Origin: Ctena decussata
Taxonomy: Eukaryota > Mollusca > Bivalvia > Lucinida > Lucinidae
Assembly: GCA_963989385.1 (NCBI GenBank)
Contig: OZ022499.1
Span: 77,861,903 to 77,925,902 of the forward strand
Direction: 5' to 3'
Length of the DNA: 64,000 nucleotides
The position numbers were made by a program, and so were the translations under genes. The notes below the pieces were generated by a model. It was not told the DNA's origin and searched no databases. It worked only from the letters and a program-made list of their open reading frames with translations. The stretch's first letter is position 1. Each line of letters starts with the position of its first letter. Below, piece after piece: positions 10 through 62,932 of this stretch.

Positions 10-64
10 AAGAGCCTGGTCAACTACACATTGGCAACCCAGAAAATCCACCCATCACTATAAG
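10..64 (+). CDS. R1 exon B (linker, putative)
   Basis: A short exon at the window edge between a T-rich tract ending in AG (8-9) and a weak donor, gttcgt, at 65. It codes about 18 residues ending in PPITI. Joined to the next exon it reads PITISYFIDK, which matches KIRYTIDK across the same junction in R3. It is 55 nt where other separate B exons are 43 nt; the extra 12 nt keep the one-to-two phase. The weak donor and atypical length make this the least certain exon. Confidence 0.5.
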
Positions 65-3000
65 GTTCGTTCGGAGCTTTGTTTGGCAATAAACATTGTT
101 ATCATAAGACGTGGCATCTGAGAGTGTAATGAAGCCATGCATTAAAAGCGATAGTCCACTAGTGGATTAAATATGCAAAAAAGGTTGTAACGTTACGTGT
201 TTACGTCCATAAAAAGTCGTGTTTTCTAATTGCGAAATTGTGACGTTTTAGTGCAAAGTTTGCTAATAAAATGCAATTTTAATGTCATATGATAAATAGA
301 AGCTTGCATTTGTGCTTCTGTATTATTGAATTTATTAAACTTGTTGGTGAAAACCGATAAGATTCTCGGCGTAGCCTCACATCTTATCTTTTTCCCCAAC
401 TTGTTTAATAAATTGAATATACATGAGTGCTCATGTAAGATCTATGAAAAAAAACTGACCATAGACATTGGGAAATAGTTTCTTGACCTGTATCTAATGA
501 AAAAAAACAACAACCCTCTTTGACTTGCAAAGTTAATAGCCATACAGTATTAATCCTTATAAATGCCCCTGCTGTAATAAATACCCCTGCCTCTTTTCCT
601 AAAATAATGTTATATAAACTTGCGCGCGGGGCCACGTAGCCCAGTCGGTAGGGCACCTGACTTATAAGTCAGAGGTCCTGGGTTCGAAACCCGGTCTGGC
701 CGCACACTTTCGTTTCTCCTTCCACTGATTCAAGAAGGGCAGTTGTCAGTTACTGGCGAAAGTATGTGCACTTAGTACTGGTTAACCGCTTAGGAGGTCT
801 AAGCCTGCCCAGGAATAGTGTGGTTAGGTTAACTGACCATCCCGACATGACCTTAGCTGTTTACCGTGGACGTTAAGCAATAAATCAATCAAAATCAATT
901 ATATAAACTTGCATGAATTCCTGTTCGCTTCTCTGGATGGGGTTGCTCTTTGACATGGGGTATAATCTTAAAGGAAAGATTTTGCTCTTAGAGAAGCAAG
1001 AGTTGAACCCTACTGAAAAGGGACACAAAATAGTAGATCTGCTTCCTCTGCAAGTATATTCATTTGCCTTTATACTGTTTATTTATTAACTCTATAAGCA
1101 CCGAAAAGCAGACGACAAAATTTACATCTGCAAAAATTAAAAAAATGCCTTGTCCAAGACATTTCATATTGAGAATTCAAAGACTACAGGGCAAACACTG
1201 TAGATCTAGATGAGGCGGCTCATTATGAGCTGCCTCATCAGGATCTACACTTTTTGCAAATTTAGCTAATTTAATCACTGGGGCTTAAAGAGTTAAAGGT
1301 ATTTAGCAATGTAATGAAATAACTGTTTTTTGGGGTCCAGTTGTAAATGACATAAATAAAGGACTAGGTTTGGCATCAGGCTATACAGCAGCCTCAGGCT
1401 ATAACAGCAAACCTCAGACTTACACAGCAATCCCCAGACTTACAACTGAGCCCAAATTACTTGACCAATAAACTAGACCAATAACATAATGTTCATGTAC
1501 ATGTATATTCCAGCTACTTCATTGACAAGTATTCTGCGGGTTTCATTGTGGATTTAAGCCTTACTATCTGCATTCCTATTGGTGATGAGCTCGTCTGTTT
1601 CCCTGATGAGGGTATTGTATTGTTGGAGCAGCAAGACATACCAGCATGCAACTTGACGGCAATAATCAATGCTGCAAAAAGCAGTAAGTATGCACTGTTG
1701 TGTAATTAATATAATGATGTTTGTCTCGCCTGCGAAGCAGAGGTGTCGACGTTGTCGGCGTAAACTTTTGTCGAGTTTTTGCGTTTAGGTCATTCTCTAT
1801 GAAACTATAAGGGCTAGAGCCATGAAACTTGGGTCATGCATACATATTGTAATAGACTGTCCCTGACTTAATGAACCTAACCCGAAACAACTGGGGCTAT
1901 TTCTTTCATTCAGTCATTGGCTCGAAGTGATCACCCATACTGTTGATGAGCCGAAGAAACCCACAAAACATTCTCAACACGCAAAATGTGTAATCAACTT
2001 ATAACTGAAGAACATAGAAAGTTTGATCAGAACTCACCAGTGTATCTGAACCCATGCTCCCTGTGTAAAGTCACTGATATCTACTAAAACTCCTAAGAGG
2101 AACTGTCAATTTATTGAACTTGCAATTCTGCATGTGTATTCATCCTCAGACTTGCTCAGAAGCATCCTCATGTAACGCCAATGTTATGTAAAGTCACTTT
2201 AATTACCAACTTCCCAACATGGAAGTGTGGTTTTGAAACATCGGCAGCCATATTGTTTACTTATTTGGAGAGCCTGGTGACAGTGTAGACATATTTTCTG
2301 CCTTAGCTATATTTATCCTGTGTAATTTAACATGGTCTGAGTTTACTTGCACTATGGACTACCTCCAGCTTCAACCTTCGGTAGCGATAGTGTTTGTAAA
2401 CTTCTAAAAATAGTAATTTAATTGATTTGTTATGTCGTCGCAACTGGCGTCTGCAGTCCGGTACGCCTGGTCACCGGACTTTCAGCATTTAGAGCTAAAT
2501 GTCACGTCTCAGCCACTGAATGTGGTATCTAAATATTCTGTAGCTTTCAAGGAATCAAGTCTTTACCACATAATTCATTAACATAGTTTACATTTTAAGT
2601 ATTTTGAAACTGAAGCTGACTTCGGACGTGAGGGTGGCCTGGCATCCTGATTTCCAAATCGAGGCGCCTGGAATCCGGGCTGCTTTTGATTGGGTAATCG
2701 GGTCACTTGGCTTCCCCGGGCTGTGAGTCATTGGTCAGTTTCAATCATGTGGGCACAATAACGCACCTATAAATAAAAGTTTGTTGCAACGTTTTGAATC
2801 TTCGGATCACGTACAGGGCGGGACGGTTTACCTGTGACCAGTACTCGACGTCACGTCAGGTTCGGAAGGCGCCAATCTTCAAATTTGTCTGGCTGATTGC
2901 CTGGCTGTGTTTACCCAGCCTAGCTCTACTGTGATAAAGTAATTATAACCTACCGTGGGTTGGGACAAGCCCGGCCTTCTATTAAGCAATACCAAACCAG

Positions 3001-6000: not shown

Positions 6001-9000
6001 TCGCATGACCAACATGGCCGCCATTACCACTTATGGTATAAATCTTTAATATGTTTCTTCTCCAGAACCAATACACCTATGGCCTTGAAACTTGGTAAGT
6101 AGCATGGAGTACTACAGTACCACCAAGAGTGTTCAAATGGTGACCTTGGGTTTACTCTGACCTTTTTGGCGGCATGGTCAAATATGGGAAAATGCTAGAA
6201 CATAAGATTTCATGGAAAGTTTTGAAGATTTTGGCCTAAAAATGGTATATATGGTTGTCTTGATGAGTACATGAAGATTTATGAGTACAAGCGGTCATGG
6301 GCATTCTTGACTTTTGACCCAAGACTCATATTTTGACATTTCAGACATGATAAGATAAAGCCACCTTGCCAATTGCCCAGGTGAGCGATTCAGGGCCTCA
6401 TGGCCCTCTTGTTTCAGTTCTAAGATGGGGCTTTCCTTTCCAAAACCATATCGAATAATCTAGATCCATCTTATCAGACTGATCAAGATTTTATGAGTTG
6501 TTTTCGACAGGAGAATCCTGTCATATAACAAAATCATACAGTATTCCGGTCAGGCCACTTACTTTGATTTCCCTTTCTGCTGATTCAAGAAGGGCAGTTG
6601 TCAGTTACTGGCGAAAGTATGTGCACTTAGTACTGGTTAACTGCTTAGGAGGTCTAAGCCTGCCCAGGAATAGTGTGGTTAGGTTAACTGACCATCCCGA
6701 CATGACCATAGCTGTTTACCATGGAGGTTAAACAATAGCACAACACACAATATTAATTAAGGCATTTTTGGTCATTCTAAAGGAGGATAAACCCCATCTC
6801 ATAGCTGAATTATCACGGTAGAATAAAGCATTTCTTGGTTCTTGTAGATTTCTCTCTGACTGAATATGTCTTGGAGAAAGGTGGAGACATTGGTTCCCAG
6901 CTGTCTGAGGCAGGATTGGAGGGTGTCATCAAGGCAACAGGACTTGGGTCCTTCCTGAATGACAAGCGATGTGACAGAAAGAAAGCCCCCTACAGTCCTA
7001 ATGTCCTCAACTGGAATAACAGTATGTCAGAAATAGCAATTTGAAACACTATGAAAGTAGGAACATGCATAACCAGTATGATATAGGACTTGTCTGTGTG
7101 TGGTGAATTTAAAACTTCATGAACAGGGGCCGTATTTATAAAACAACTTAAGTCGTTGCTATGCTGTTGCTAAGGCTAAATTTCTATGAAGGAGATTCCT
7201 TACAACTATGAAATTTGCTCTGGAGGAACAGTCAGAAAAAGACTTTTCCTCCAGAGCGACGTGGACGTTAAGCATCAAACCAATCAATCAATCAATCCTC
7301 CAGAGTGAATTTCATAGTTGTAGTTGTACAAGTCATATCATGGAACGTTCTATGAATGTTTAAGCTAAAATGTAGATTTTGATCTGAATGGTTTTATTCA
7401 GACTTGTGCACAGGTATAAGTTATTTTTCAGATACATTTAAAATAAGATTTAAATTGTTGACCTACTACCCCAAGAAGGGCTGAGTTGTTAATTTTTGAG
7501 TTATATTGATTACAAGCTCACATACTTCTACTCAGTTATTTCTTTGTTTGCTTGTTAACTAAAGCTGAAAATGCAATAGAGCTTTTTCATTTTCACTTGC
7601 AAACTTCTCCATCATTCAATGATGTCTAAAAATTTCCAGCTGTTGTACAAAAGTTAAGTGCACAGTGTGCTAATGGTCTAATATTTTATTATTATTCCCT
7701 TTTTGTTTTCAGGATGTCACCTTAGTTTTGTTGACCTACCACCTCTTCCTGAGATGGTATCATGTCATATACCAGAGCATTGTACCGGCATATATTGCTG
7801 TGTGGATATACCAAAGCTAAGGCTGTCCATTGAGGCATACTTGGACATTGACCTCTGCACTTACAGGGTGGCAGGAGGAATTGAAAAAGAAACCTTTGAC
7901 CAAACAATGTTTGAATATGAATGGGGTAAGTGTATATGGATCTGTTTATAGAATAAACTTTTATAGTGAGTTCATTTGGTTTCTGCAGTCAACCCTTTTA
8001 AAATACGTCATTTCATGGCCTCTGCATTTTGGGTCAATTGGTAGTTATTTTATTTTAGGTGATTATTTTACATTGAAAACATTTTGAAAAAAAAAGAAAG
8101 AAAGACAGTTCTAGCAAAATTCCAGGTGAAATTAACCGCAATTGGTGAGAAAAAGTGTCAGTTTGGTAACTGGTTTACTATATTTTTGCCATATCTAGAG
8201 TACAGTGTTGTAAGATTTCCATTCAGGGCCGATTTGTTCAACACTGACAGCATTGTTAGTTAATGAGACATTCTATTTTCAAACATACACAAAAACACTG
8301 CAGTTTTTGCGGAAAAAATGTGAGGAGCTTTTGCACTGCAAAAGTAGTGCAAAAACTCCTCACATTTTGTCCGCAAAAAATATAAGCATACTTGATTTTA
8401 TGTGTACCAGAAGACTTAATATGTCCTTGACTAACATCTTGATTAAGCTAACCATGCTTTGAACAACTGGGCCCAGATTTCTAACATACAGACAAGGCTG
8501 CCATTTCAGCTGACGTCCACAGTCCTCATGAAACACTGACCATTTGACATGTCTGGTAAACATTCATTCAGTCCGGTAATTTCAAGTACATTTTAATCCT
8601 ATTACCAAAATTGGGTCCCATAAATTCTCCCAGACTCTGCATTCATCTGATATCTTGTAAATGGCTAATTTTGTATTGCTATATAACTGCTAGAGTACTA
8701 ATGCTTCTTTTTTTGTGCAGGAAAACCTGAAAGTGTTTCCATCCTGGGACTGTTGGATTTTAAGTAAGTACATTTAGAGAGGTGGGAGGGGACATACATC
8801 TGGCTTTGTCATTTAGACAAGCTCATTAATGAAGGTAGTTATTCAGGGAAGGCCGCTCATAGCAGATTCTTTTGCTTAAGAGTAGACCCCTTTTTGGAAG
8901 GTTTTTGACTCCCAGGGAAGCAAATAAACTTCTTAATGCATAAAATAAATACATTCAGAGTTAAGCTAATTGTTAAAACTGTGCTTGTAGCTTGTTTATG

Positions 9001-42000: not shown

Positions 42001-43168
42001 TGGTAATGTCGTAACTGCAATGATCGTTATATCCATAGACAACAAGACATGTCTTGTTGTCTATGGATATAACGATCATTGCAGTTATGACAATGTGTTA
42101 TTGTCAATGGATATAACGATCATTGCAGTTGCATGTCTTGTTGTCTATGAATACATAAGTGGAGGTAACAATGGTTGCATTTTTATCCCCCGACCAAAAG
42201 GTTCGGGGGATATAGCGATGAGCCTGGCGTCCGTCCGTCTGTCCGTCCGTAAACATTTTCTTGTCCACTCCATATCTTGAATACCGTTTTTGAATATTTT
42301 CATAATACTTCACAGATATGTAGAATGACATGACGATGTGCCGCGTGCAAGAATGGTAACTCTTGCTTTTGTAATTATTGAGTTATCTCCCCTTTGGTGA
42401 ATTTTTTGCAGATTCTTGTCCGCTCTGTAACTTTATTACCCTTTGGAATATTTTCATCATAATTCACAGATATGTAGAGCAGGTCATGCTGATGTGTCGC
42501 GAACAAGAATGACAACTCTTGCTTTCTAAGTTTTTGAGTTATTTCCCCTTGATGGTTTTAGGTGTAAATTCGTGTCCGCTCTATAACTTGAATACCTTTT
42601 GAAATATTTTCATGATATTTCACAGATATGTAGAACAGGTCATGCTGATGTGTCGCGAACAAGAATGACAACTCTTGCTTTCTAAGTTTTTGAGTTATTT
42701 CCCCTTGATGGTTTTAGGTGTAAATTCGTGTCCGCTTTATAACTTGAATACCTTTTGAAATATTTTCATGATACTTCACTGATATGTAGAACAGGTCATG
42801 ACGATGTGTCGCGAACAAGATTGACAACTCTTGCTTTCTTACTTTTTGAGTTATTTCCCCTTGATGGTTTTAGGTGTAATTTCGTGTCCACTCCATAACT
42901 TGAATACCCTTTGGAATATTTTCATGATACTTCATAGTTACGTAGAACAGGTCATGCTGATGTGTCACGAACAAGAATGACAACTCTTGCTTTCTAAGTT
43001 TTTGAGTTATTTCCCCTTGATGGTTTTAGGTGTGATTTCGTGTCCGCTCCATAACATGAATACCCTTTGAAATATTTGTATCATACTTCACAGATCTGGA
43101 GATCAGATCATGACAGTTTGTCTCATACAAGAATGACAACTCTTGCTTTCATACTTTTCCGAGTCCCC

Positions 43169-43199
<31 letters not shown>

Positions 43200-43598
43200 A
43201 AAAAAATATTTTTTTTTTTTTTTTCAGATTTGGATTCTTTGTCCAAATTCACTTACTAGAGAGCTCAAAATTAGATTTGTAGGGCTTGTACTTTAGAAGT
43301 TATTCACACATTTTGAAATGTTGAATGTATCATATGCAATACATTGTCTACATGGTTGCTATTTGAGATTTTACCTCTTTTTAGCAATCTGGCATACTGT
43401 TTTGGTCTGAGTGTTAGATAATCATGCATCTAATAAACAGATATTGTCAATAAGGAGCATAAAAGAATGACAGTATACTATTTATAAATGTTTTGAAGGG
43501 CACTGTGTTTACCAAAGCACAAGGGGCCTTTGGTCGGGGGATTTGCCATCTCCTCTGATGGCTATTTTTGTTTGTGAAAGTGGTAAACTGTGAATTTA

Positions 43599-43629
<31 letters not shown>

Positions 43630-58600: not shown

Positions 58601-61600
58601 GGTCAAGGTCACTGTGGCTATTTTTAGAAAAACTTTGTCAGCGCTTTAGCTCCTACATTTATCAGCAGATTTTAAAATAACTTCACACAAATGTAGGGCA
58701 TGACAATATCTCGAGCAAGTTTGACTTTCATGGTGCTGCACCCAAGGTCAAGGTCACCGTGGCTATTTTTAGAAAAACTTGGTCATCGCTCTAGCGCCTA
58801 CATTTCTCAACGGATTTGAAATCAACTTCACACAAATGTAGGGCATGACAATATCTCAAACAAGTTTGACTTCCAGGGTGCTGCGCCCAAGGTCAAGGTC
58901 ACTGTTGCTATTGTTAGAAAAAACTTTGTCAGCGCTCTAGCACCTACATTTCTCAATGGATTTTAAAATAAATTCACACAAATGTAGGGCATGACAATAT
59001 CTCGAGCAAGTTCCACTTTCAGGATGCTGTGCCCAATGTGAAGGTCACTGTGGCCACTTTTAGAAAAACTTTGTCATCGCCCTAGCACCTTCATTTCTCC
59101 ATGGACTTTGAAATAACTTGACACAAATGTAGGGTATGACAACATCTCAAGCAAGTTTGACTTTCAGGATGCTGTGCCCAAGGTCAAGGTCACTGTGGCT
59201 ATTTTTAGAAAAACTTTGTCATCGCTCTAGCACCTACATTTCTCAACCGATTTTAAAATAAATTCACACAAATGTAGGGCATGACAATATTTCGAGCAAG
59301 TTTGACTTTCAGGGTGCTGCAATCAAGGTTTTTGATTAGATCCTTATCATACTTGCAGGTATGACATACATAAGAGCTTGGATGAGTTCGAAATTTGGCC
59401 GGATTCGAGCACAGACTACGGAGTTAGCTGCCCTTGAGCGTTTGAAAAAAATCCCATAGTCTTATAATGGAGAAAACAACGTCATCACATTTTCATTTTT
59501 CATCAGATCCTCTTCATACTTGCAGGTAATGAGGATATGCATAAAAGCTTGGATTAGTTAGCATTTCGGCTAGATCCCACCACTGACTATGGAGTACCTG
59601 CCTTGAGCATCCAAATAATCAATGTAGCCACTTTTTTTTGGTTTCTACTGATCTGATCCTTTTCAAACTTGCAGGTAATGAGGAAATGCATAATATCTTA
59701 AACAAGTTCAAATTTTGGCCAGATCAGGCCAACCACTACGAAGTTAGCTGCCCTTGACAGCTCTGTCTATTGTGCTCTTGATCGGATACTTTTTAAACTT
59801 GCATATATTAAATGAGGGCATACATAATGTTTTGGATGAGTTTAATTTTCAGCCTGATTGGACCACTGACTGTGGAGTTAGCTGCCCTTGAGCATCTTAA
59901 ATATCCCTATAGGTTTACAATGTCTCTCAGGTGAGCAATTGTTGCCCTTTGGGCTACTTGTTACCAAGGCCCATGGGGGTCTTCGGTCGGGGGATTTGCC
60001 ATCTCCTCTGATGGCTATTTTTTACTTTTTGAGTTATTTCCCCTTGATAGTTTTAGGTGTGATTTTTTGGGCAGATTCGTGTCCGCTCTATAACTTGAAT
60101 ACCCTTTGGAATATTCTCATGATATTTCACAGATATGTAGAACAGGTCATGACGGTGTGTTGCAAACAAGAATGACAACTCTTGCTTACTTACTTTTTGA
60201 GTTATTTTCCCTTGATCATTTTAGGTGTGATTTGGTGTCCGCTCTATAACTTGAATACCTTTTGGAATATTTTCATGATACTTCACAGATATGTAGAACA
60301 GGTCATGAAGATGTGTCTCGAACAAGTATGACAACACCTGCTTTCTTACTTTTTGAGTTATTTCCCCTTGATGGTTTTAGGTTTGATTTTGTGTCTGCTC
60401 TATAACTTGAATACCTTTTGGAATATTTTCATGATACTTCACAGATATGTAGAACAGGTCATGATGATGTTTCGCGAACAAGAATGACAACTCTTGCTTT
60501 CTTACTTTTGGAGTTATTTCCCTTTGATAGTTTAAGGTGTCTGCCCCATAGCTTGAATACCTTTTAACCCTTTTTAGACCGGATACCCGTTTTGGGGACA
60601 TTATGCAAACAGTGCAGACTCAAAACGCGGCGTCTGATCAGGGTCTACATTGTTTGCTTACAGGAATTTCTATGCAAAGTACAATAAAAGTGAAAATATT
60701 CACCAGAAATCCCTAAAACTAATAATGGGATTATCTGAATGATAAGAATAGACAAGACCACTGGTCAAAAAAGGGTTAAAATATTTTCATGATACTTCAC
60801 AGATATGCATAACAGGTCATGACAATTTGTCTCATACATGAATGATAACTCTTACTTTCTTACTTTGTGAGTTATTTTCCTTTGGTAGTTTGAGCTGCTG
60901 TTTGAGTCTCTGCTCCATATCTGTATAACCCTGGCCTGCTCCAGAATTTGAATAACCTTGTACCTTTTAGAATATCGATGATCATGCTGTGATATCTTAT
61001 CAGTGTTCCTAACTCTCTCTGACCCCTCCACGTGCCCGCGCAACCTCCCCCCCCCCCCCCCCCCCCCCCCCCCACGTGCCCGCACAACAAAAAAAAAAAA
61101 TCCAGAGTTGGATTCTTTGTCCAAATTCACTTACTAGAGAGCTCAAAATTAGGTTTGTAGGGCTTGTACTTTAGAAGTTATTCACATATTTTGAAAGTTG
61201 AATGTATCGTATACTATACATTTGTGTATATGGTGGCTGTTTGAGATATTACCTCTTTTTAGCAGTCAAGCATACTGTTTTAGTCTGAATGTTAGATAAT
61301 CATGCATCTGTTAACAGATAATGTCAATCAGAAGCATAAAAGAATGACAAAATATTACTAATATGTGTTTTGAAGTTCACCCTTTTTACCAAGGCCCATG
61401 GGGGTCTTCGGTCGGGGGATTTGCCATCTCCTCTGATGGCTATTTTTGTATTTTCAGACTTCTCCCTGGAAGATATAATGACAGGTCTTTCATTAGATCC
61501 TGCTTTGCCCCTACCCCCAGAATTTCTGGACCAGGTCATGCATACTCTTGGAGTATCCAGTTATCTTCTACCGGTGCCCTGCTCACAAGATGAATATCCT

Positions 61601-62932
61601 TTCATGCGGTCAGATACAAACTGGAATATAGGTATGGGCCCAGTTGTTCAAAGCATCGTTAGCCTAACGAGCTTGTTCAGGGGTCAAATCGTAAAGTGTT
61701 TTACAACTTTATAGCCAAATACACTGCTATTTTTGGTTGAAAATATGTGAGAAAAGCTTCCCAGATTTTTTCAACAAAAAATATTGGCAGATTTGTGCCA
61801 TTAACATTTGAAGTATTAACAAAATGTTAGCTAACGACATCATCAACTGGGCCATGATATTTTATTTTGTTTATTCTTTATTTTGTTTATTTATGGTGTT
61901 TTGATACACTTTCAGGGGAAACAACTTCACAATTTTCATTTTTGCCTCCTCTATCATTAGTGGAAAGAATTTTGCTACTCCAAAAGAATATTCTTTCCAT
62001 GAAGAGTAGACTCAGATTTAGAAATGCTACGTTTTCTAGAGAAGCCAATAGGAAGAAAAACAAAAGTTATTCCCCTTTGTAAAATGGCAGAAAGTCTTTG
62101 AGGTGTACCCATACACCTTAAGATGTCACTCAGATATGCAAATTTTTGTCTCCCTTTTCATTGGGGGGTGGGGGGGGGGGGCACTCTTAATAGAAAGATG
62201 TTACTAGAGGACAAATTCTTTCTTTTAAGGTTCGCCCCTATCAGAGTAGTGGTTCGCTTGCCAGGGAAGGGAACCTCACTCACCTTAAGTTTTCTTTCTT
62301 GTAATGATTATGTCCTTGGTGAATTTTAAACATCTTTTATTTCAGAATGGTTATGGCTGGTGTAGTAATTTCCCTTTCAGAAATGAAAATAATATATCAT
62401 TTTTATCATAATTATGATTGTGTGAAAAAGTTTCCATTACATGTACATCTACTCAACTGATCAAAGTCTTCCCTTTTGCATATACAGTCTGTGAACCCTA
62501 GAGTATCTAAAAAATTGGAATAAGACTGATCTGTTTGCACAAATGTTCAGACTGATTAAAAGTAGACACCATTTCTGAAGAGCTTCATTGTTGAGGGAAG
62601 CAAACAGGAAGTCACAAAAGCTGTTCCCCTTTGTAAAAATGGCCGAAAGACATGAAGGTATGTACCTTAAAAATTTGCACCTTTTTTCCATTTTACAGTA
62701 TTGGGTTGAAATGGTTTATTTTCAGAGTGCCCAGGAGTCAGCCTCCCACCCCTGCCAAGCCCTGTCGTCTGCAATCTCAAGTCCTCATGTGATAGTTACC
62801 AGTGTTGTGTAGCAGCAGATGCCATTGGTAGAACATTCTATGCCTCAGCTTCAATTAACATGTGCGAGTACAAAATTTCACTAACGATAGAGAAGTACAC
62901 GCATGACCTATCATTTGCTGAGGTTACATTTG
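10..62932 (+). CDS. Interior of a giant tandem-module cysteine-rich gene (30 exons, R1 to R9)
   Basis: Thirty exons, listed separately below, join into one open frame of 4743 nt. They follow a fixed order of four exon types. A starts after one codon base and ends after one; B goes from one to two; C from two to one; D from one to one. Every exon length fits this rule, which chance ORFs would not do. Each A-B-C-D set codes for a module of 192-203 residues with ten cysteines (six in A, three in C, one in D). A has the CxIPExCxGIxCC signature, C ends LPxPxCN, and D carries LGxxxYL...PC and a final W. Cysteine density and sequons suggest a secreted or surface protein. No signal peptide or membrane segment is visible because both ends of the gene lie outside. 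I do not recognise the family. Exon and phase structure is seen directly; the extracellular location is inferred. Confidence 0.9.
624..898 (+). mobile_element. RUDI/V-SINE-like tRNA-derived SINE, full length
   Basis: A tRNA-like head with box A (tagcccagtcggtagggc) and box B (gggttcgaaacc) is followed by a conserved body and a tail ending in ggacgttaagcaataaatca, typical of L2-type LINE 3' ends. A perfect 14-bp target duplication, ttatataaacttgc, flanks it at 610-623 and 899-912. The anticodon stem encloses a six-base loop, so it is a SINE head and not a working tRNA. Naming as RUDI-like is from remembered features and unverified. Confidence 0.88.
1514..1683 (+). CDS. R1 exon C
   Basis: Acceptor ttccag, donor gtaagt. 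It codes YFIDKYSAGFIVDLSLTIC, then two more cysteines (VCFPDEG and IPACNLT). This is the longest C exon at 170 nt, because the loop between the first and second cysteine is extended. An N-glycosylation sequon, NLT, follows the third cysteine directly, as in R5 and R7. It enters with two codon bases and leaves with one. Confidence 0.85.
1720..1870 (+). repeat. Relic of a tctcgcctg-headed element
   Basis: Starts tttgtctcgcctgcgaagca, followed by a gtcgacgttgtcggcg stretch and one body segment (ttttgtcgagttttt, actataagggctagagccat). Related heads or body pieces recur at 10505-10675, 11882-12035 and 33296-33410, and the body is tandemly repeated at 3470-3960. Confidence 0.6.
1900..3420. other. 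Intron sequence with no recognised feature
   Basis: I see no exon-like open segment with matching phase, no RNA gene and no clear element ends here. It may be an old insertion within the tandem-repeat element on either side. Confidence 0.5.
3470..3965 (+). repeat. Tandem array, about 150-157 bp unit
   Basis: Degenerate units start with gagtcttgacctac near 3473, 3624, 3781 and 3933, and contain ctagagccatgaaacttggg. It is probably the body of the element whose head is at 1720. The intervening sequence at 1900-3420 has no clear assignment. Confidence 0.7.
4404..6414 (+). mobile_element. HC-1 element, copy 1
   Basis: Begins tttttagctcacctgagcc with a short 5' hairpin, then a ccgtccgtccgtc stretch, then three to four degenerate units of roughly 440-500 bp, and ends caggtgagcgattcagggcc followed by atggccctcttgttt. 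The ends gctcacctg and caggtgagc are inverted repeats. The units contain tgaccttgacctttt and aggtcaaggtcatt. Local ORFs in it are not conserved and I call it non-coding. It fills the R1 C-D intron. Confidence 0.85.
6550..6736 (+). mobile_element. RUDI/V-SINE-like SINE, 5' truncated
   Basis: Carries the SINE body from the ttctgctgattcaagaaggg region to the taaacaat tail, but the tRNA-like head is missing apart from a few bases (aggccac). It interrupts a palindromic MITE that starts near 6415. No clear target duplication seen. Confidence 0.8.
6848..7021 (+). CDS. R1 exon D
   Basis: Acceptor cttgtag, donor gtatgt. It codes a helical-looking stretch, FSLTEYVLEKGGDIG through KATGLGSFL, then the single conserved cysteine in DKRCDRKKAPY and the closing NWNN. 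Length 174 nt, the commonest D length. It joins R2 exon A without a frame change. It lies about 110 bp downstream of a 5'-truncated SINE. Confidence 0.92.
7135..7345. repeat. Hairpin MITE split by a SINE tail
   Basis: Left arm includes actatgaaatttgctctgga and right arm includes tccagagtgaatttcatagt. The SINE tail fragment lies near the turn. Confidence 0.6.
7258..7300 (+). mobile_element. SINE tail fragment in a hairpin repeat
   Basis: A short gtggacgttaagcatcaaac plus caatcaatcaatc piece matching the SINE 3' end. It lies between two arms of an inverted repeat (tcctccagag on the left, tccagagtgaatttcatag on the right), near the hairpin tip. Confidence 0.65.
7713..7925 (+). CDS. R2 exon A
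   Basis: Acceptor gttttcag, donor gtaagt. It shows the full six-cysteine A pattern: GCH, LPPLPEMVSC, then CHIPEHCTGIYCCVDI, then a sixth cysteine in DIDLC, and ends in EYEWG. It enters and leaves after one codon base. This exon is a good reference copy for the A domain. Confidence 0.93.
8226..8474. repeat. MITE family H3 (ggcccagttgttcaa ends)
   Basis: An inverted repeat ending in ttgaacaactgggcccag, with a strong inner hairpin around ctttgcactgcaaaag. Other copies are at 12661-12814, 29203-29437, 31743-31985 and 61635-61854. Confidence 0.75.
8721..8763 (+). CDS. R2 exon B (linker)
   Basis: A 43-nt exon after the acceptor tttttgtgcag, with donor gtaagt. It codes GKPESVSILGLLDF and takes the phase from one to two. 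It has the B pattern of an acidic start and a hydrophobic end (LGLLDF), comparable to LFGLVRV in R8. Too short to be found by ORF length; supported by position, phase and splice sites. Confidence 0.87.
9067..9307. repeat. MITE family H1 (tgagccacgac ends), degenerate
   Basis: Ends tgagccacgacatgac and ttatgttgtggctca are inverted. The interior has the family's cagatgagcctgggc and cagtctaatctgagtc blocks. In the R2 B-C intron. Confidence 0.75.
9635..9875. repeat. Palindromic repeat H11, copy 1
   Basis: Contains cagactgcacataagtgcag as a near-perfect palindrome, with flanking tcacatgacaaaattgctac. A second copy at 40328-40520 also lies just upstream of a C exon. Confidence 0.7.
9893..10056 (+). 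CDS. R2 exon C
   Basis: Acceptor ctacag, donor gtattt. It codes FSIKKPPNEKIFVIDLDVGAC, with cysteines at GAC, GSC and PGC in the QPGCD ending. 164 nt. The acceptor lies about 20 bp downstream of a 240-bp palindromic repeat (9635-9875). Confidence 0.92.
10143..10226. repeat. Short palindrome H4 (gcagtctgatctgggtctac type)
   Basis: Inverted arms cattgtagacccagatcaa and gatgagagtctacagtg. Similar 50-60 bp palindromes are at 1198-1252, 14527-14586, 24964-25022, 29878-29942, 30765-30814 and 32936-32985. Confidence 0.65.
10690..10878 (+). CDS. R2 exon D
   Basis: Acceptor taatttcag, donor gtaagt. Starts EFSLSTMLSNNGL, continues through SETLGLKKYYLDRPCEQ, and ends in DNHWKDG. At 189 nt it has five more codons than the usual D exon, in the first helix region; R5 exon D has the same length. 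Its single cysteine is in the conserved PC. Confidence 0.93.
11558..11770 (+). CDS. R3 exon A (second cysteine missing)
   Basis: Acceptor atttcag, donor gtaagt. Opens ECGKFLSSLPKLPD and continues with KDSCTAVDCCVDVSWLRK. The position of the second conserved cysteine, the first C of CxIPExC, is a glycine here (GALKDSC), so R3 has nine cysteines in all. The sixth is present in NIDFC. Frame and length (213 nt) are otherwise normal. Confidence 0.92.
12302..12492. repeat. MITE family H2 (gctctagataagagg ends)
   Basis: A hairpin with core atgttgtgacccctcat and its inverse. Other copies are at 20409-20610, 20824-21023, 26843-27200 and 30190-30430. Confidence 0.75.
12536..12578 (+). CDS. R3 exon B (linker)
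   Basis: A 43-nt exon after atttcag, with donor gtgagt. It codes NVPREETIQELLKI, then AG joins the first base of exon C to make R. It lies about 45 bp downstream of a hairpin MITE. Confidence 0.87.
12661..12814. repeat. MITE family H3, internally deleted
   Basis: Inverted ends gggcccccttgttcaaa and ttgaacaactgggccc, about 150 bp. In the R3 B-C intron. Confidence 0.7.
13105..13340. repeat. MITE family H5 (gaatttgctcc hairpin)
   Basis: Central perfect hairpin around gctcctctaggagc, flanked by tttcctttaa arms, with outer ccctttt and aggaagt blocks. Other copies lie near 950-1090, 20225-20393, 25355-25475, 32650-32800, 34015-34240, 61905-62115 and 62560-62665, and at the right edge of the window. 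Confidence 0.75.
13671..13845. repeat. MITE with acagtcaaccctcttta ends
   Basis: Left end acagtcaaccctctttataa, right end gttgtaaagagggtccactg; a TA precedes the left end. Probably a Tc1/mariner-type MITE. Confidence 0.65.
13959..14116 (+). CDS. R3 exon C
   Basis: Acceptor attactag, donor gtaagt. It codes YTIDKAAKDFIVDLSIAVC, with further cysteines in GPC and PIC. 158 nt. A hairpin MITE begins only about nine bases into the following intron, just past the donor hexamer. Confidence 0.92.
14126..14367. repeat. MITE family H1
   Basis: A well-preserved inverted repeat: tgagccacgacacagcaag on the left and ggtgtcgcggcacata on the right. It starts nine bases past the R3 exon C border. Confidence 0.8.
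14527..14586. repeat. Short palindrome H4
   Basis: Near-perfect palindrome with arms agtttggatccagatcaggc and gcctgatctaagatccaaac around ccccacatttgtgggg. Confidence 0.75.
14795..15133 (-). mobile_element. Second SINE family, minus strand, tRNA-derived head
   Basis: Read on the minus strand it starts with a tRNA-like head: gcgcggtggctcagtggtta (box A) and gggttcgaatcc (box B), at about 15060-15131. It ends near 14795 in an AAAG-repeat tail, seen as cttt repeats on the plus strand. It splits a MITE whose halves are at about 14705-14794 and 15134-15270. It is unrelated to the RUDI-like SINE. Confidence 0.82.
15824..18085 (+). mobile_element. HC-2 element, copy 1
   Basis: Starts with a T-run and agctcacctgagccgaaggc. 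The perfect hairpin gctcacctgagcc/gaa/ggctcagaggtgagc is followed by ccgtccgtccgtg. A first repeat type covers about 16080-16440. Then an array of 145-bp units follows: gtggctattt starts at 16591, 16736, 16881, 17026, 17171 and 17316. It ends caggtgagcaattgttgccc plus tttgggctacttg. Each 145-bp unit carries an aaggtcaaggtcac block. No coding capacity seen. Confidence 0.88.
18353..18594. repeat. MITE H9 (ccgaggttataaaa ends)
   Basis: Left end ccccgaggttataaaa, right end ttttataaccttgggg, with nested palindromes of the type atgctcagctgagcat. It ends about 40 bp before R3 exon D. A related element is at 34363-34529. Confidence 0.75.
18634..18807 (+). CDS. R3 exon D
   Basis: Acceptor tttttcatacag, donor gtatga. 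It codes FSLKSYLKAKGQDIAQSM, then LDLDRYLLKPECDRHAG and SWNS. The final codon is completed by the next A exon (SWNSEC). The donor is followed after about 30 bp by a pogo/Tigger-like element. Confidence 0.92.
18838..19947 (-). mobile_element. Pogo/Tigger-like non-autonomous element with a transposase N-terminal relic
   Basis: Inverted ends caggtctacctcattataac and gttataatgaggtagacctg, flanked by TA at 18836-18837 and 19948-19949. On the minus strand an ATG at 19282 opens METPRKKRKAFSVKD, which resembles the start of Tigger/pogo transposases (CENP-B-type DNA-binding region). The similarity stops after about 15 residues, as expected if the rest was deleted. 1110 bp. Fits a deleted Tigger relative; the family call rests on the TA flank, the end structure and the peptide. 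Confidence 0.72.
19951..20135. repeat. MITE with ttagaacttt/aagttctactg ends
   Basis: Left end attagaactttgttggctcg, right end gttcgagccattgaagttct, abutting the Tigger-like element. Short inverted-repeat element. Confidence 0.65.
20225..20393. repeat. MITE family H5 copy
   Basis: Has the family's outer blocks (atggatacactttcagtt at the left, aaaatataggtgtaccc at the right) but has lost the central hairpin arm. Confidence 0.6.
20409..20610. repeat. MITE family H2, well preserved
   Basis: Ends agagccctagataagaggg and ccctcttatctagggctct. The centre ccgtctcgactagacgg lies between tgacta/ctcatct-type arms, making a hairpin of about 200 bp. A half copy follows at 20634-20721. Confidence 0.82.
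20824..21023. repeat. MITE family H2, well preserved
   Basis: Ends agagctctagataagaggg and cctcttatctagagctctg, with near-perfect arms around ccgtctctacaagacgg. Two copies within 0.5 kb, both close to intact, suggest recent activity. Confidence 0.83.
21178..21378. repeat. MITE family H1
   Basis: Ends tatgagccgcagtgcgag and ggcgcggctcata, with the interior gatcagactgggc blocks. Confidence 0.8.
21932..23166. mobile_element. TA-flanked element with ccgtaattcttcgg ends
   Basis: Left end ccgtaattcttcggctatta, right end tatagccaaagaaatacgg, both flanked by TA, so the insertion is mariner-like. 1235 bp, including the SINE at 22446-22712. Shorter relatives with the cttatagc...cggta end occur near 33470-33620, 48595-48745 and 62960-63160. 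No transposase ORF seen. Confidence 0.7.
22446..22712 (+). mobile_element. RUDI/V-SINE-like SINE, full length
   Basis: The same SINE as at 624-898, with box A, box B (gggttcgaatcc) and tail taagcatcaaatcaaccaac. A 13-bp target duplication, acataattgagcc, lies at 22433-22445 and 22713-22725. It sits inside the TA-flanked element at 21932-23166 and is therefore younger than it. Confidence 0.87.
23254..23469 (+). CDS. R4 exon A
   Basis: Acceptor cttcttgtag, donor gtaagg. Contains ECNISLSLPELPIP, then CHIPEYCTGIQCCVFVGFIR, a sixth cysteine in LNGC and VGIER. 216 nt. The acceptor lies about 85 bp downstream of the right end of a TA-flanked element (21932-23166). Confidence 0.93.
23583..23714. repeat. 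Palindromic repeat H8
   Basis: Arms aatcaagaaatttcatattg and acgcaatttcttgattta, with inner cagttacaggtccgaggttt and its inverse. A hairpin of about 130 bp followed by a degenerate tattggc-rich stretch to 23835. Confidence 0.7.
24112..24154 (+). CDS. R4 exon B (linker)
   Basis: A 43-nt exon after ctatattttag, with donor gtaagt. It codes DIEESFYLQGIIRI and joins exon C as RIHFTI. Phase and length agree with the other B exons. Confidence 0.88.
24964..25022. repeat. Short palindrome H4
   Basis: Arms gtagatctaaaggagatggc and catctcctccggatctgcac; it ends 50 bp before R4 exon C. Confidence 0.65.
25072..25232 (+). CDS. R4 exon C
   Basis: Acceptor gttgtcag, donor gtgagt. It codes FTIVNLESSQQYLLNMDVSIC, then EEDCEIYMDVF and LPKPLCNWN. 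This is the cleanest example of the LPxPxCN ending. 161 nt. Confidence 0.93.
26253..26612. repeat. TTTCGCG-rich inverted-repeat element H7
   Basis: Left end tatacacggtaattttcgcg, right end cgcgaaaattaccatgtata. The arms are filled with ttttcgcg or cgcgaaaa repeats, and the centre has the palindrome cattaacctgccgcaggtta. It ends under 30 bp before R4 exon D. Confidence 0.75.
26640..26804 (+). CDS. R4 exon D
   Basis: Acceptor ttgttacag, donor gtaagt. It codes VVGDWLASRGADIMKDYL, then TGIAEYLLGEPCSRQELPF and NGWASG. The shortest D exon at 165 nt. The acceptor sits under 30 bp from the end of a TTTCGCG-rich inverted-repeat element. Confidence 0.93.
26843..27200. repeat. MITE family H2 split by a SINE
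   Basis: Left part tgctccagataagaagggg with a hairpin around ctgtctcggtgagatgg; the right arm is interrupted at 27017 by the SINE and resumes at 27165 to end in cttatctggaactctg. Confidence 0.8.
27018..27164 (+). mobile_element. RUDI/V-SINE-like SINE, 5' truncated
   Basis: Only the 3' half of the SINE is present (from gttactggcgaaagtatg to the aataaatcaatcaaa tail). Flanked by imperfect copies of aattatccctgt (27005-27016) and aataatccctgt (27165-27176), consistent with target-primed insertion into a hairpin MITE. Confidence 0.82.
28611..28832. repeat. MITE H6 (cttgatatctcaaa ends), copy 1
   Basis: Left end actcttgatatctcaaacac, right end tgagatatcgagagttgact, with an inner palindrome aaattttctgggaccagaaa. 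It ends 50 bp before R5 exon A. A second copy is at 37024-37235. Confidence 0.75.
28881..29148 (+). CDS. R5 exon A+B fused
   Basis: Acceptor actcttttag, donor gtaagt. A 268-nt exon containing both A (CYIPEYCSGISCCADVDIIS, sixth cysteine in NTC, VGIEDF) and B (DESIALFGFVRIE) with no intron between. All six A cysteines are present. The A part has a longer spacer between the first and second cysteines (PALPAELLSTLRPLSGPFT). Confidence 0.94.
29203..29437. repeat. MITE family H3
   Basis: Left end gggcccagttgttcaaagca and inner hairpin agaagcttttgcagcttct; it starts about 55 bp into the R5 B-C intron. Confidence 0.78.
29878..29942. repeat. Short palindrome H4, near perfect
   Basis: Arms agtgtagaccctgaccagac and cagtctgatctgggtctaca around gctccttttggagc. 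Confidence 0.75.
30022..30173 (+). CDS. R5 exon C
   Basis: Acceptor tctttcag, donor gtaagt. It codes YNILNLEWSKEFVVNLKLTVC, then KTCPIDF and IACNGT. A sequon, NGT, follows the third cysteine. 152 nt, the same length as R6 exon C. Confidence 0.93.
30190..30430. repeat. MITE family H2 with a partial internal duplication
   Basis: The core acattgtgacccctcattag is present twice in direct orientation before its inverse, so one arm has been duplicated. Confidence 0.72.
30903..31091 (+). CDS. R5 exon D
   Basis: Acceptor tgcttacag, donor gtagga. Starts GVDIGGLVKKLRSGDMG, with AAQFMKQEQCDRLGDSYYP and GGWKSG later. 189 nt, with the longer first helix seen also in R2. The cysteine follows Q rather than P. 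Confidence 0.92.
31743..31985. repeat. MITE family H3, well preserved
   Basis: Left end gggcccggttgttcaaaact, right end tcaaacaactgggccct, with a near-perfect inner hairpin of 35-40 bp per arm around ttgcactgcaa. A degenerate relative lies directly upstream (31500-31740). Confidence 0.8.
32232..32481 (+). CDS. R6 exon A+B fused (sixth cysteine missing)
   Basis: Acceptor acaatttcag, donor gtaggg. It codes CATELPTLHEYLS, then CYIPETCMEINCCIYV. The usual sixth cysteine is replaced (SLDIFSS). The B part, TFDMLGVFEL, follows without an intron, as in R5. 250 nt and fully open. Confidence 0.93.
33049..33200 (+). CDS. R6 exon C (all three cysteines missing)
   Basis: Acceptor tgttttag, donor gtatgc. 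Aligns with other C exons (ERKFIVSMSATAF, DNMILPYKTF) but has no cysteine. The first two cysteine positions are alanine (SATAF, DALEF) and the third is lysine (PYK). Frame and splice sites are intact, so this is divergence rather than decay. 152 nt. Confidence 0.9.
33811..33980. repeat. MITE with cagtagaacctg/caggttcgactg ends
   Basis: Left end acagtagaacctgtcttagt, right end taatacaggttcgactgta, with direct or inverted gtattaagcaagca blocks in between. Confidence 0.7.
34015..34240. repeat. MITE family H5 copy
   Basis: Left end aaggtgtatgggtacactgg; arms around gacagggagcaagttctttc. Ends before ctgaaagggtatct. Confidence 0.65.
34363..34529. repeat. Palindromic MITE H9, copy 2
   Basis: Left end gaggttataaaacttgagaa, right end ctcaagttttataacctc. 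Contains a direct as well as inverted repeat of tgctcggaagcag. It lies about 105 bp upstream of R6 exon D. Confidence 0.75.
34637..34810 (+). CDS. R6 exon D
   Basis: The acceptor choice follows phase: AG at 34635-34636 gives ELSFDEVVESLGES; the next AG, two bases on, would break the frame. Continues FNALGITPYLKEEPCSLS to NGWTKG. Donor gtatat. Its PC cysteine is kept although R6 has lost four others. Confidence 0.9.
35205..35408 (+). CDS. R7 exon A
   Basis: Acceptor aatttgtag, donor gtaagt. Six cysteines: DCNVNLPPLPSYLRC, then CHLDNTCTKVTCCLEIDKIR, then LDTC. The shortest A exon at 204 nt. The IPE motif is changed to LDN, showing that the cysteines are held more tightly than the intervening residues. 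Confidence 0.93.
36071..36304. repeat. MITE family H1
   Basis: Ends atgagccgggacacgac and tcatgttgcggctcag; interior tctgatcagactgggtgga. Confidence 0.78.
36681..36723 (+). CDS. R7 exon B (linker)
   Basis: A 43-nt exon after a strong pyrimidine tract (cttccttccag), with donor gtaatt. It codes DSTLEYNLKGFLKL. Length and phase match the other B exons. Confidence 0.87.
37024..37235. repeat. MITE H6, copy 2
   Basis: Left end aactcttgatatctcaaag, right end tgagatgtcgagagttgact, with an inner hairpin tttctggtagcagaaa. Confidence 0.75.
37533..39906 (+). mobile_element. HC-5 element carrying a nested HC-4
   Basis: Starts gtcacccgacaaaggcggag and ends gtcgggtgac, an inverted pair. A ccgtccgtccgtccctccgt block follows the 5' end, then actttgtccccgcaactcct. 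That segment recurs at 39214 as actttgtccccacaactcct, on the far side of the nested HC-4 copy. Confidence 0.78.
37731..39183 (+). mobile_element. HC-4 element, copy a, nested in HC-5
   Basis: Opens with tttttatcccccgaccgaaa. The hairpin segment is duplicated in tandem (37736 and 37770). Then come ccgtccgtccgtccg, four to five units (tgtccgctctataacttgaa, acaggtcatgacgatgtgtc), a poly-C/poly-A/poly-T tract at 38802-38839, and the end tcttcggtcgggggatttgc through gatggctattttt. The ends atcccccgaccga and tcggtcgggggat are inverted. Confidence 0.85.
40328..40520. repeat. Palindromic repeat H11, copy 2
   Basis: Contains agactgcacataagtgcagt and atcacatgacaaaattgcta, as in the copy at 9635-9875. 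It lies about 245 bp upstream of R7 exon C. Confidence 0.68.
40764..40924 (+). CDS. R7 exon C
   Basis: Acceptor cgttccag, donor gtttgt. It codes LNLETQEDRGIDVVTLSVSQC, then QPCEQIKIF and LPKPGCNWT. A sequon, NWT, follows the third cysteine, although the next residue is proline. 161 nt. A palindromic repeat related to that before R2 exon C ends about 240 bp upstream. Confidence 0.93.
41357..41530 (+). CDS. R7 exon D
   Basis: Acceptor tctttgcag, donor gtaagt. Contains YFSWDDIKNGLLPSPTD, SMGISNFLSEDPCHRDRYPF and FWNN. 174 nt. The last base, T, joins the next A exon to make leucine (NNLC). Confidence 0.93.
42012..42087. repeat. Perfect 37-bp inverted repeat with a 2-nt loop
   Basis: Arms 42012-42048 and 42051-42087 pair without mismatch; they contain tgatcgttatatccatagac and its inverse, with loop AT. 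A third, direct, partly diverged copy follows at 42102-42150. Confidence 0.85.
42181..43569 (+). mobile_element. HC-4 element, copy b
   Basis: Starts ttttatcccccgaccaaaag, ends ggtcgggggatttgccatct through gatggctattttt. Body units repeat at 156 bp: tccgct or its variant at 42420, 42576, 42732, 42888 and 43044. A run of about 27 C, then A, then T, lies at 43166-43224. Confidence 0.87.
43598..43685. repeat. CT/GT microsatellite
   Basis: A ctctctctct run followed by gtgtgtgtgtgtgtg and gcatgcgtgtgt variants, lying between an HC-4 and an HC-3 element. Confidence 0.9.
43686..46015 (+). mobile_element. HC-3 element with a regular 145-bp array
   Basis: Starts tttttagctcgcctgagcac with the hairpin gagcac/gaa/gtgctc, then ccgtcgtacgtccgtccag, and ends gctcaggtgagcgattcagg through tggccctcttg. 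The array units start (ta[ct]gctctag) at 43931, 44076, 44221, 44367, 44512, 44657, 44802, 44947, 45093, 45238 and 45383, a spacing of 145 or 146 throughout. Each unit ends with aggtcactaggtcaaat. R8 exon A starts 51 bp after it. Confidence 0.9.
46066..46275 (+). CDS. R8 exon A
   Basis: Acceptor atttttcag, donor gtaggt. Six cysteines: CSFDFNLPQLPDPLSC, then CYIEDFCSGVTCCADIGFLR, then VDSC. A sequon, NIS, lies near its end. The donor was set by phase: GT at 46276 keeps the one-base ending, a GT four bases later would not. The HC-3 element ends about 50 bp upstream, so the branch point lies at or next to the element's end. Confidence 0.93.
46453..46688. repeat. MITE family H1
   Basis: Ends tgagccatgacacgagaaaa and ttctcacgtttcagctca, in the R8 A-B intron. 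Confidence 0.78.
46991..47033 (+). CDS. R8 exon B (linker)
   Basis: A 43-nt exon after ttctttgcag, with donor gtaagt. It codes GTRGALSLFGLVRV and then joins as VEYEID. It closely resembles the B part of the fused R5 exon (ALFGFVRIE). Confidence 0.9.
47468..47850 (+). repeat. Tandem repeat of about 113-118 bp
   Basis: Units start at tgatgaaaattct (47468, 47586, 47699), each with an A-rich run, agcccaatacagggtgaaat, a tcggctcctaggacgatt-type block and cccatgttgcccc. It ends 18 bp before R8 exon C. Confidence 0.82.
47868..48028 (+). CDS. R8 exon C
   Basis: Acceptor tactttcag, donor gtttgt. It codes YEIDSDPDARAFIVTVDI, then KLCFKGEDCEF and IPYPMCR. A sequon, NHT, lies between the second and third cysteines. 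161 nt. The next exon is 13.4 kb away. Confidence 0.93.
48350..48563 (+). mobile_element. HC-1 element, 3' fragment
   Basis: Matches only the right end of HC-1 (cagatttcatggaaagtttt to caggtgagcgattcagggcc). Confidence 0.75.
50233..51407 (+). mobile_element. HC-6 element, copy 1
   Basis: Starts ttttttagctcgcctgaacg with hairpin cctgaac/gaaa/gttcagg, then gcgtccgcgtcagcgtcagc in place of plain CCGT. About three units follow (tggatgttttggttaaagtt, agtgaccttgatgtcaaggt). It ends attcaggcgagctatgctgt, caggcgacagctcttgtt. Confidence 0.83.
51990..54345. other. Interior of the TTAA element, no gene seen
   Basis: AT-rich sequence without long ORFs, tandem repeats or exon-like segments. Confidence 0.55.
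54346..56316 (+). mobile_element. HC-1 element, copy 2 (nested in the TTAA element)
   Basis: Same as the copy at 4404: tttttagctcacctgagcca, a ccgtccgtcgtccgtccac block, units with gaccaacatggccgccatgc and tgacctttgacccagaactc, and the end caggtgagcgattcagggcc. Confidence 0.86.
56317..57440. other. Right interior of the TTAA element, no gene seen
   Basis: AT-rich; nothing recognisable apart from the inverted end that starts near 57440. Confidence 0.5.
57684..59961 (+). mobile_element. HC-2 element, copy 2
   Basis: Same as the copy at 15824, with a longer cgtgcgtgcgtgcgtgggtg array after the hairpin. Array units (gt[gt]gc) start at 58469, 58614, 58759, 58904, 59050 and 59195, a spacing of 145-146. 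It is inserted in the T-run just before the right end of HC-4 copy d. Confidence 0.87.
60568..60775. mobile_element. piggyBac-like MITE
   Basis: Ends ccctttttagacc and ggtcaaaaaaggg, flanked by TTAA at 60564-60567 and 60776-60779. An H4-like palindrome (cagtgcagactc, gatcagggtctacattg) lies inside. It interrupts a body unit of HC-4 copy c. Confidence 0.78.
61458..61631 (+). CDS. R8 exon D, bracketed by mobile elements
   Basis: Acceptor tattttcag, donor gtatgg. It codes FSLEDIMTGLSLDPALPLPP, then TLGVSSYLLPVPCSQDEYPF and TNWNIG. 174 nt, correct phase. An HC-4 element ends about 10 bp upstream and a hairpin MITE begins about 4 bp downstream, so almost nothing of the original flanking intron is left. 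Confidence 0.93.
61635..61854. repeat. MITE family H3 abutting R8 exon D
   Basis: Left end gggcccagttgttcaaagca starts four bases into the intron; right end catcaactgggcc. The donor's outer bases are therefore next to or within the element. Confidence 0.78.
61905..62290. repeat. Two adjacent MITE family H5 copies
   Basis: The first (61905-62115) has gaattttgctactccaaaag with its inverse; the second (62120-62290) starts with ttttcattgggg and a G-run and has a tagaggacaaattctttc arm. Confidence 0.6.
62726..62932 (+). CDS. R9 exon A (last exon seen)
   Basis: Acceptor ttattttcag, donor gtatgt. Six cysteines: ECPGVSLPPLPSPVVC, then CNLKSSCDSYQCCVAADAIG, then INMC, and TIEKY. 207 nt. I could not find its B exon in the remaining 1.07 kb, so the gene continues beyond the window. 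Confidence 0.92.

Follow-up and report, generated by a model that had tools for sequence, protein, structure and literature searches.

An undescribed ten-cysteine module repeated in a likely giant multi-domain gene of the bivalve Ctena decussata, with a possible role as an extracellular stalk

What kind of protein is encoded by the long series of small, similarly patterned exons on contig C2 of the 1.66 Gb Ctena decussata genome, and is this series a gene in its own right? We analyzed a stretch of 64,000 nucleotides (C2:77861903-77925902, hereafter the window), for which a sequence-only reading had proposed a gene of 30 exons and 1581 codons at 10..62932, made of seven complete and two partial copies of a ten-cysteine module with a fixed A-B-C-D exon order, and had suggested an undescribed repeat family. 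Our independent gene model, built from stop-to-stop ORFs and splice-site scoring, arrived at the same 30 exons on the + strand (10..62932, 4,743 nt) and the same modules, seven complete (M2-M8) and two partial (M1 without exon A, and M9 consisting of exon A alone). The frame is free of stops over 1,580 complete codons by our own count. All 29 introns are of the GT-AG type, with lengths of 394 to 13,429 nt. The exons and the basis of each call are as follows.

10..64 (+), exon B1, 55 nt, of the "special module 3" variant type; by eye like the longer B segment that this special module has in relatives; weak donor GTTCGT
1514..1683 (+), exon C1; gene model, tblastn
6848..7021 (+), exon D1; gene model, tblastn, other-species profile
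7713..7925 (+), exon A2; gene model, other-species profile
8721..8763 (+), exon B2, 43 nt; phase, length and splice sites only
9893..10056 (+), exon C2; gene model, other-species profile
10690..10878 (+), exon D2; gene model, other-species profile
11558..11770 (+), exon A3, without the second cysteine; gene model, other-species profile
12536..12578 (+), exon B3, 43 nt; phase, length and splice sites only
13959..14116 (+), exon C3; gene model, other-species profile
18634..18807 (+), exon D3; gene model, other-species profile
23254..23469 (+), exon A4; gene model, other-species profile
24112..24154 (+), exon B4, 43 nt; splice-site scoring, gene model
25072..25232 (+), exon C4; gene model, other-species profile
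26640..26804 (+), exon D4; gene model, other-species profile
28881..29148 (+), fused exon A5+B5; splice-site scoring, gene model, other-species profile
30022..30173 (+), exon C5; gene model, other-species profile
30903..31091 (+), exon D5; gene model, other-species profile
32232..32481 (+), fused exon A6+B6, without cysteine 6; splice-site scoring, gene model, other-species profile
33049..33200 (+), exon C6, cysteine-free (without cysteines 7, 8 and 9); gene model, module-exon search; under the other-species profile threshold
34637..34810 (+), exon D6; gene model, other-species profile
35205..35408 (+), exon A7; gene model, other-species profile
36681..36723 (+), exon B7, 43 nt; splice-site scoring, gene model
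40764..40924 (+), exon C7; gene model, other-species profile
41357..41530 (+), exon D7; gene model, other-species profile
46066..46275 (+), exon A8; gene model, other-species profile
46991..47033 (+), exon B8, 43 nt; splice-site scoring, gene model
47868..48028 (+), exon C8; gene model, other-species profile
61458..61631 (+), exon D8, preceded by a 13.4 kb intron; gene model, other-species profile
62726..62932 (+), exon A9, the last in the window, module exons running on to about +224 kb; gene model, other-species profile, module-exon search

Exon phases are constant throughout (A, 1-1; B, 1-2; C, 2-1; D, 1-1), with the A-B, C-D and D-A borders in phase 1 and the B-C border in phase 2. Stand-alone B exons are 43 nt long except for B1 (55 nt), and in modules 5 and 6 the A and B exons are fused into a single exon with unchanged phases. 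B1 (donor GTTCGT), B2 and B3 are the least secure calls, with length, phase and splice sites as their basis.

Each module comprises approximately 195 residues split over three or four exons, and pairwise identity among the seven complete modules is 20 to 36%. Five of these seven contain ten cysteines; M3 has nine and M6 has six, the latter lacking exactly C6, C7, C8 and C9. The signatures given by the sequence-only reading do recur, and the final tryptophan is present in 8/8 D exons; their exact forms are confined to a minority of exons, namely CxIPExCxGIxCC in 3/8 A exons (M2, M4 and M5), LPxPxCN in 2/8 C exons (M4 and M7), and LGxxxYL in 2/8 D exons (M6 and M8). The module pattern is real, if loosely kept. 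With the window rows removed, 36 modules from other species were used to build profiles for the A, C and D exon types, which were searched against 1,668 six-frame window ORFs of at least 25 codons each. At E<1e-3, they matched 8/8 A, 6/8 C and 8/8 D exons, every match lying on the + strand and following the proposed exon order, although the 36 modules had originally been picked by a window-made profile and aligned together with the window modules, and were therefore not independently chosen. The minus strand and a reversed-peptide control yielded no profile matches at 1e-3. This test covered the A, C and D exons, and the two C exons that it missed are C1 (from the variant module) and C6 (cysteine-free).

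The sequence-only reading had also suggested searching the modules against Pfam and protein collections and predicting the structure of one module. The window protein matched no Pfam family up to E 10. When 31 modules of relatives (described below) were examined, 12 Pfam families (best E 0.0057) and three NCBIfam families (best E 0.0016) appeared, each in one member, and module profiles gave no match to PDB sequences up to E 10. In the absence of a fitting family in Pfam, NCBIfam or PDB, the module is, as judged by these sequence comparisons, an undescribed domain, which agrees with the earlier suggestion. DUF4773 (PF15998), considered as a candidate relative, was not among the Pfam matches of the 31 modules. 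The predicted model of a single Ruditapes module (mean pLDDT 82) has nine strands within residues 14-124 and helices at 141-175, with weak spots at the join between the beta part and D (pLDDT 57), in D itself (70-81) and in a pTM of 0.61; a tandem Mytilus module pair was predicted with a mean pLDDT of 84. In this prediction, exons A, B and C together encode a beta domain of nine strands, and exon D encodes a short helical link that comes after it. Foldseek searches with the two predicted models gave best E-values of 1.9e-3 and 3.7e-2, with TM-scores of at most 0.36 among the matches listed. The FAIM N-terminal domain fold (PDB 3mx7), a beta sandwich, was considered as a possible structural counterpart. 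Similarity of the module models to lipid-binding barrels was considered and rejected as too weak.

EGF, fibrillin TB and similar domains are tandem disulfide-rich extracellular repeats. Like the EGF and TB repeats, the module occurs as tandem phase-1, cysteine-patterned exon units in a long array with secreted-type domains alongside; unlike them, it spans approximately 195 residues over three or four exons and has no match to catalogued domains.

A disulfide plan can be predicted from cysteines that are lost together. In a first count of 193 modules (186 from relatives and seven from the window), C2/C4 were lost jointly 19 times and singly twice, C7/C8 16 times and once, and C6/C9 eight and three times, respectively, numbers that shared descent inflates because related modules were counted repeatedly. 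Specifically, 18 of the 19 joint C2/C4 losses and 8 of the 16 joint C7/C8 losses belong to one and the same inherited special module, and 6 of the 8 joint C6/C9 losses to another, the remaining C7/C8 losses being spread over several unrelated modules from flatworm, amphioxus, mussel, Ruditapes and the window. A bridge between C10 and C1 of the following module was also considered; the apparent C1 losses in the column count mostly reflect the ends of alignments. Among 24 hand-scored modules of the Ctena array, joint versus single losses were 4 and 0 for C6/C9, 3 and 1 for C2/C4, and 2 and 0 for C7/C8, and the next-ranking cysteine pair had a p of 0.08. The single C2/C4 case is M3, which has lost C2 and retained C4 and counts against a C2-C4 bridge. 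In the 17 Ctena modules that had not been used previously, C2/C4 and C6/C9 were each lost jointly three times and never singly (p 0.0015 each), and C7/C8 showed no joint loss; without the special modules (n=14), C2/C4 and C6/C9 were each jointly lost twice (p 0.011). The predicted disulfides are C2-C4, C6-C9 and C7-C8. The absence of C6, C7, C8 and C9 from M6 would fit the loss of two of these bridges (C6-C9 and C7-C8).

Such losses could also be read as signs that the Ctena array is partly decayed, either as a former gene or as a pseudogene copy: four cysteines are absent from M6, one each from M3, M15 and M16, and two each from M11, M13, M18 and M19 (hand-coded), and the introns are long and filled with repeats. 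However, the absence of stop codons from all 30 exons, the uninterrupted GT-AG borders and constant phases, and the paired nature of most cysteine losses, as under constraint, make decay very improbable.

Searches of a large protein collection, using queries that themselves contained modules, yielded 37 distinct relatives, 34 of which carry the module at E<=1e-3. Two of these, the sponge protein P0033 and the Babylonia protein P0036, have one weak copy each; no module was found at this threshold in P0034, P0035 or P0037, the last of which is fungal. The relatives include bivalves (Ruditapes, Mya, Mercenaria, Mytilus, Mizuhopecten, Pinctada, Potamilus and Saccostrea), gastropods (Patella, Haliotis and Babylonia), and, outside molluscs, the flatworm Macrostomum and amphioxus with arrays and the sponge Oopsacas with its single weak copy. 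Most of their database names are "uncharacterized" or "hypothetical", or are taken from another domain. The full layout is present in three gastropod proteins (P0027, P0028 and P0029; approximately 7,500 residues and 12 modules) and comprises, in order, a Vitellogenin_N head, a LECT2-like M23 stretch, SAP, the module array, a polybasic site, a PAN/FN3/EGF-like tail and a hydrophobic segment. Ruditapes P0031 has the array and tail without the head, and in the remaining array entries, those of amphioxus and flatworm among them, the array stands with the head or by itself and the tail is absent. P0004 has a reverse transcriptase as its tail. PAN/Apple and FN3 domains come from the domain lists accompanying the relatives, and EGF_CA in a piece of the P0031 tail is just under the cut-off (24.7 vs 27). 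Seven relatives have a hydrophobic segment that begins 30 to 284 residues from the C-terminus and is, on its hydrophobicity, likely a transmembrane helix; the sponge protein P0033 has no such segment near its C-terminus. VWFA domains are listed beside SAP motifs in three Mytilus relatives (P0011, P0013 and P0022).

Pfam places Vitellogenin_N, M23 and SAP N-terminal to the array in relatives. Eleven of them were scanned (P0001, P0006, P0009, P0010, P0012, P0015, P0017, P0023, P0024, P0033 and P0034, none longer than 5,000 residues; thresholds of E 10, 1, 1 and 0.01). Vitellogenin_N exceeded its cut-off of 24 bits in P0024 (40.4), P0023 (31.4), P0033 (30.6) and P0015 (25.8), fell short of it in P0017 (22.2), and was not listed for P0006, P0010 and P0012. 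SAP was over the cut-off in P0006, P0009, P0012, P0015 and P0017, and not in P0024 and P0023. An N-terminal Vitellogenin_N/LPD-N, by which members of the large lipid transfer protein (LLTP) superfamily are recognized, is thus present in P0024, P0023, P0015 and P0033, and the upstream exons of Ctena match the same part. A strict vitellogenin is defined by LPD-N, DUF1943 and VWD together (PMC10799875); Pfam listed no DUF1943, DUF1081 or VWD in the 11 relatives. Also unlike vitellogenin, the head is followed by the M23 stretch, SAP, the module array and the PAN/FN3/EGF-like tail. An alternative is that the modules are lipid-facing beta sheets that widen the lipid cavity of this head, the whole protein being a huge soluble lipoprotein, which we regard as unlikely.

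These components, from the head as far as the EGF-like region, were found around the window, which is an internal piece with matching exons extending far past both of its ends. Within 100 kb upstream, tblastn revealed exons for the head, M23, SAP and special modules 1-3, colinear and on the + strand, and M1 of the window is the end of special module 3. The head exons start at -84.6 kb, and exons for the first ~400 head residues were not found in these 100 kb. Taken alone, the Ctena head exon scores 13.1 bits against Vitellogenin_N (E 0.036) and is colinear with the head of the relatives. The M23 exons lie near -43 to -37 kb; the zinc ligands are intact (QHDGVD for HxxxD and NHLHL for HxH), and the exon alone is under the Pfam cut-off (14.4 vs 28.7). 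For SAP (PF02037), the exon at -13.7 kb scores 24.3 against a cut-off of 23.9, and that at -30.3 kb scores 17.1. In the 100 kb downstream, the A-C-D order persists, which brings the count to 22 regular A exons from M2 onward, in addition to the three special modules upstream, and further A exons are located at +176.6, +189.4 and +219.1 kb. The array therefore has at least 28 A-type exons or modules, with approximately 54 kb (+164 to +217 kb) outside the stretch counted. Over 264 kb, 73 module-exon matches (E<1e-2) are on the + strand and one is on the - strand (E 0.003). The last C exon, at approximately +224.3 kb, is directly followed by KRKRRRR; colinear tail exons with PAN/FN3/EGF-like matches lie at +226 to +257 kb and an EGF-like region at +329 kb. 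It is likely, from the order and orientation of these matches, that the flanking exons and the window form one giant gene, which would span at least 414 kb if single. The sequence-only reading was thus right about the domain and incomplete as to the protein, the repeat belonging to a giant multi-domain protein.

Comparison of module order suggests how the array has evolved. M1-M6 match modules 2-7 of Ruditapes P0001 in order and M8 matches module 9, with M7 and M9 off this diagonal; Potamilus P0030 shows the diagonal for M1-M6. Only M1 is clearly placed in the limpet, and M1 and M3 in abalone P0028; no clear module order was seen in amphioxus and the mussel fragment P0002. The ordered match in bivalves suggests an old, fixed array start in this group and turnover among the later modules. 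Identity among A exons of the array averages 30% and reaches 46% at most (for a stray A-like fragment paired with its neighbour), so that recent mass duplication is not indicated for the stretch read, save for a tandem of C exons near +142 kb. This tandem (window coordinates +142087 to +142463) consists of a C exon and two partial copies of approximately 150 bp, and may be a snapshot of exon duplication. Because A, B+C and D units all have phase 1 at both ends, modules could be gained, lost or skipped in frame, which would explain why their number differs across species.

The same divergence and variable module number would fit another alternative, in which the array is a recognition surface whose diversified modules bind microbial or self ligands, the protein serving as a receptor in immunity or allorecognition that includes a LECT2-like M23 domain. 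The intact M23 zinc motifs in Ctena, the best PDB sequence match of the M23 stretch (LECT2, at a weak E of 0.23) and the four loci with head exons on one contig, that of the window included, are in line with it. The likeness to LECT2 and peptidase M23 consists in the HxxxD and HxH motifs of the sequence upstream of the window; as for differences, P0009 alone among the relatives scanned exceeded the Pfam cut-off, and the first histidine is missing from several of the bivalve relatives. Against a recognition surface, the conserved module order on the N-terminal side of the bivalve array points to the first modules having a fixed role. We consider a recognition surface unlikely.

Our preferred reading, to which we assign a probability of roughly 45%, is that the array of beta beads forms a stiff extracellular stalk bearing a lipoprotein-like head, and that a furin-type protease releases it from a membrane anchor. 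The stalk is deduced from the tandem beads and the disulfides: beta beads closed by disulfides and joined by short helical links would make it stiff, and it would hold the lipid-transfer-type head outward from the cell. The C-terminal hydrophobic segment would anchor the protein in the membrane, and cleavage at the polybasic site, located where the array ends toward the membrane, would free the head and stalk together. Here, we infer that the flanking exons share one transcript, that the polybasic site is cleaved and that the array is extended. The window part of the array is acidic (226 D+E vs 121 K+R), which would suit an extended, soluble stalk; N-glycosylation motifs in the window protein are not enriched (8 vs 9.2 in shuffles). 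The 1,580 residues of the window contain no polybasic motif. Among the nine relatives with more than 100 residues past the last module, five (P0027, P0028, P0029, P0031 and P0036) have a polybasic motif within approximately 45 residues of the array end. However, furin-type motifs are not special to this position: they are also found farther along the tail and in the head of long relatives, amphioxus P0024 has one within the array, and no such motif lies near the array end in P0022, P0025 and P0033. This lowered the probability that we give to the stalk reading and to the broader one below.

More broadly, and tentatively, these proteins may represent an overlooked class in animals, from sponge to amphioxus and greatly enlarged in molluscs, of membrane-anchored lipid transfer proteins, in which a vitellogenin-type head and a LECT2-like domain are carried on a countable, furin-releasable stalk of new ten-cysteine modules that grows and shrinks in frame. 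In the openly licensed literature, including PMC10799875 and PMC1783640, we found no account of this architecture or of the gene identifiers, which is weak evidence of absence. The architecture, that of a lipid transfer protein of giant size and likely anchored in the membrane, is apparently new for the vitellogenin superfamily. The analysis also contributes a domain of extracellular type that is absent from the catalogues searched and has a testable disulfide plan. It accounts for a set of giant proteins that are misnamed or left as "uncharacterized" in the annotations of molluscs, flatworm and amphioxus, and provides a clean example of repeat growth via phase-1 exon units.

Additional family members were observed elsewhere in the genome. 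Head, module and tail exons also occur at three further loci on the minus strand of C2 (approximately 1.70-1.87, 2.09-2.43 and 119.2-120.14 Mb), with head exons near 1.87, 2.43 and 120.14 Mb, which brings the head loci on this contig to four with that of the window. More distant relatives of the tail region, also on the minus strand, were detected at C9:55.53 Mb, C1:29.67 Mb and C1:30.44 Mb, where they occupy open frames of approximately 400 codons, suggesting few introns there.

Several features of the introns in the window were also recorded. A frame at 61340-61457, resembling repeated frames elsewhere in the window, abuts the acceptor of exon D8, and a mobile element thus seems to adjoin this splice site. 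Three tRNA-like stretches with Rfam tRNA matches, at 630-703 (+), 22447-22520 (+) and 15064-15127 (-), are probably heads of short interspersed elements; ARAGORN detected two of them, both without a readable anticodon. Tandem arrays have units of approximately 145 bp (16451-17441, 43780-45920 and 58329-59320) or approximately 156 bp (37868-38633, 42258-43150, 49311-50232 and 60079-60540). Their unit lengths recur and similar units occur at several places, and these arrays are probably borne by mobile elements.
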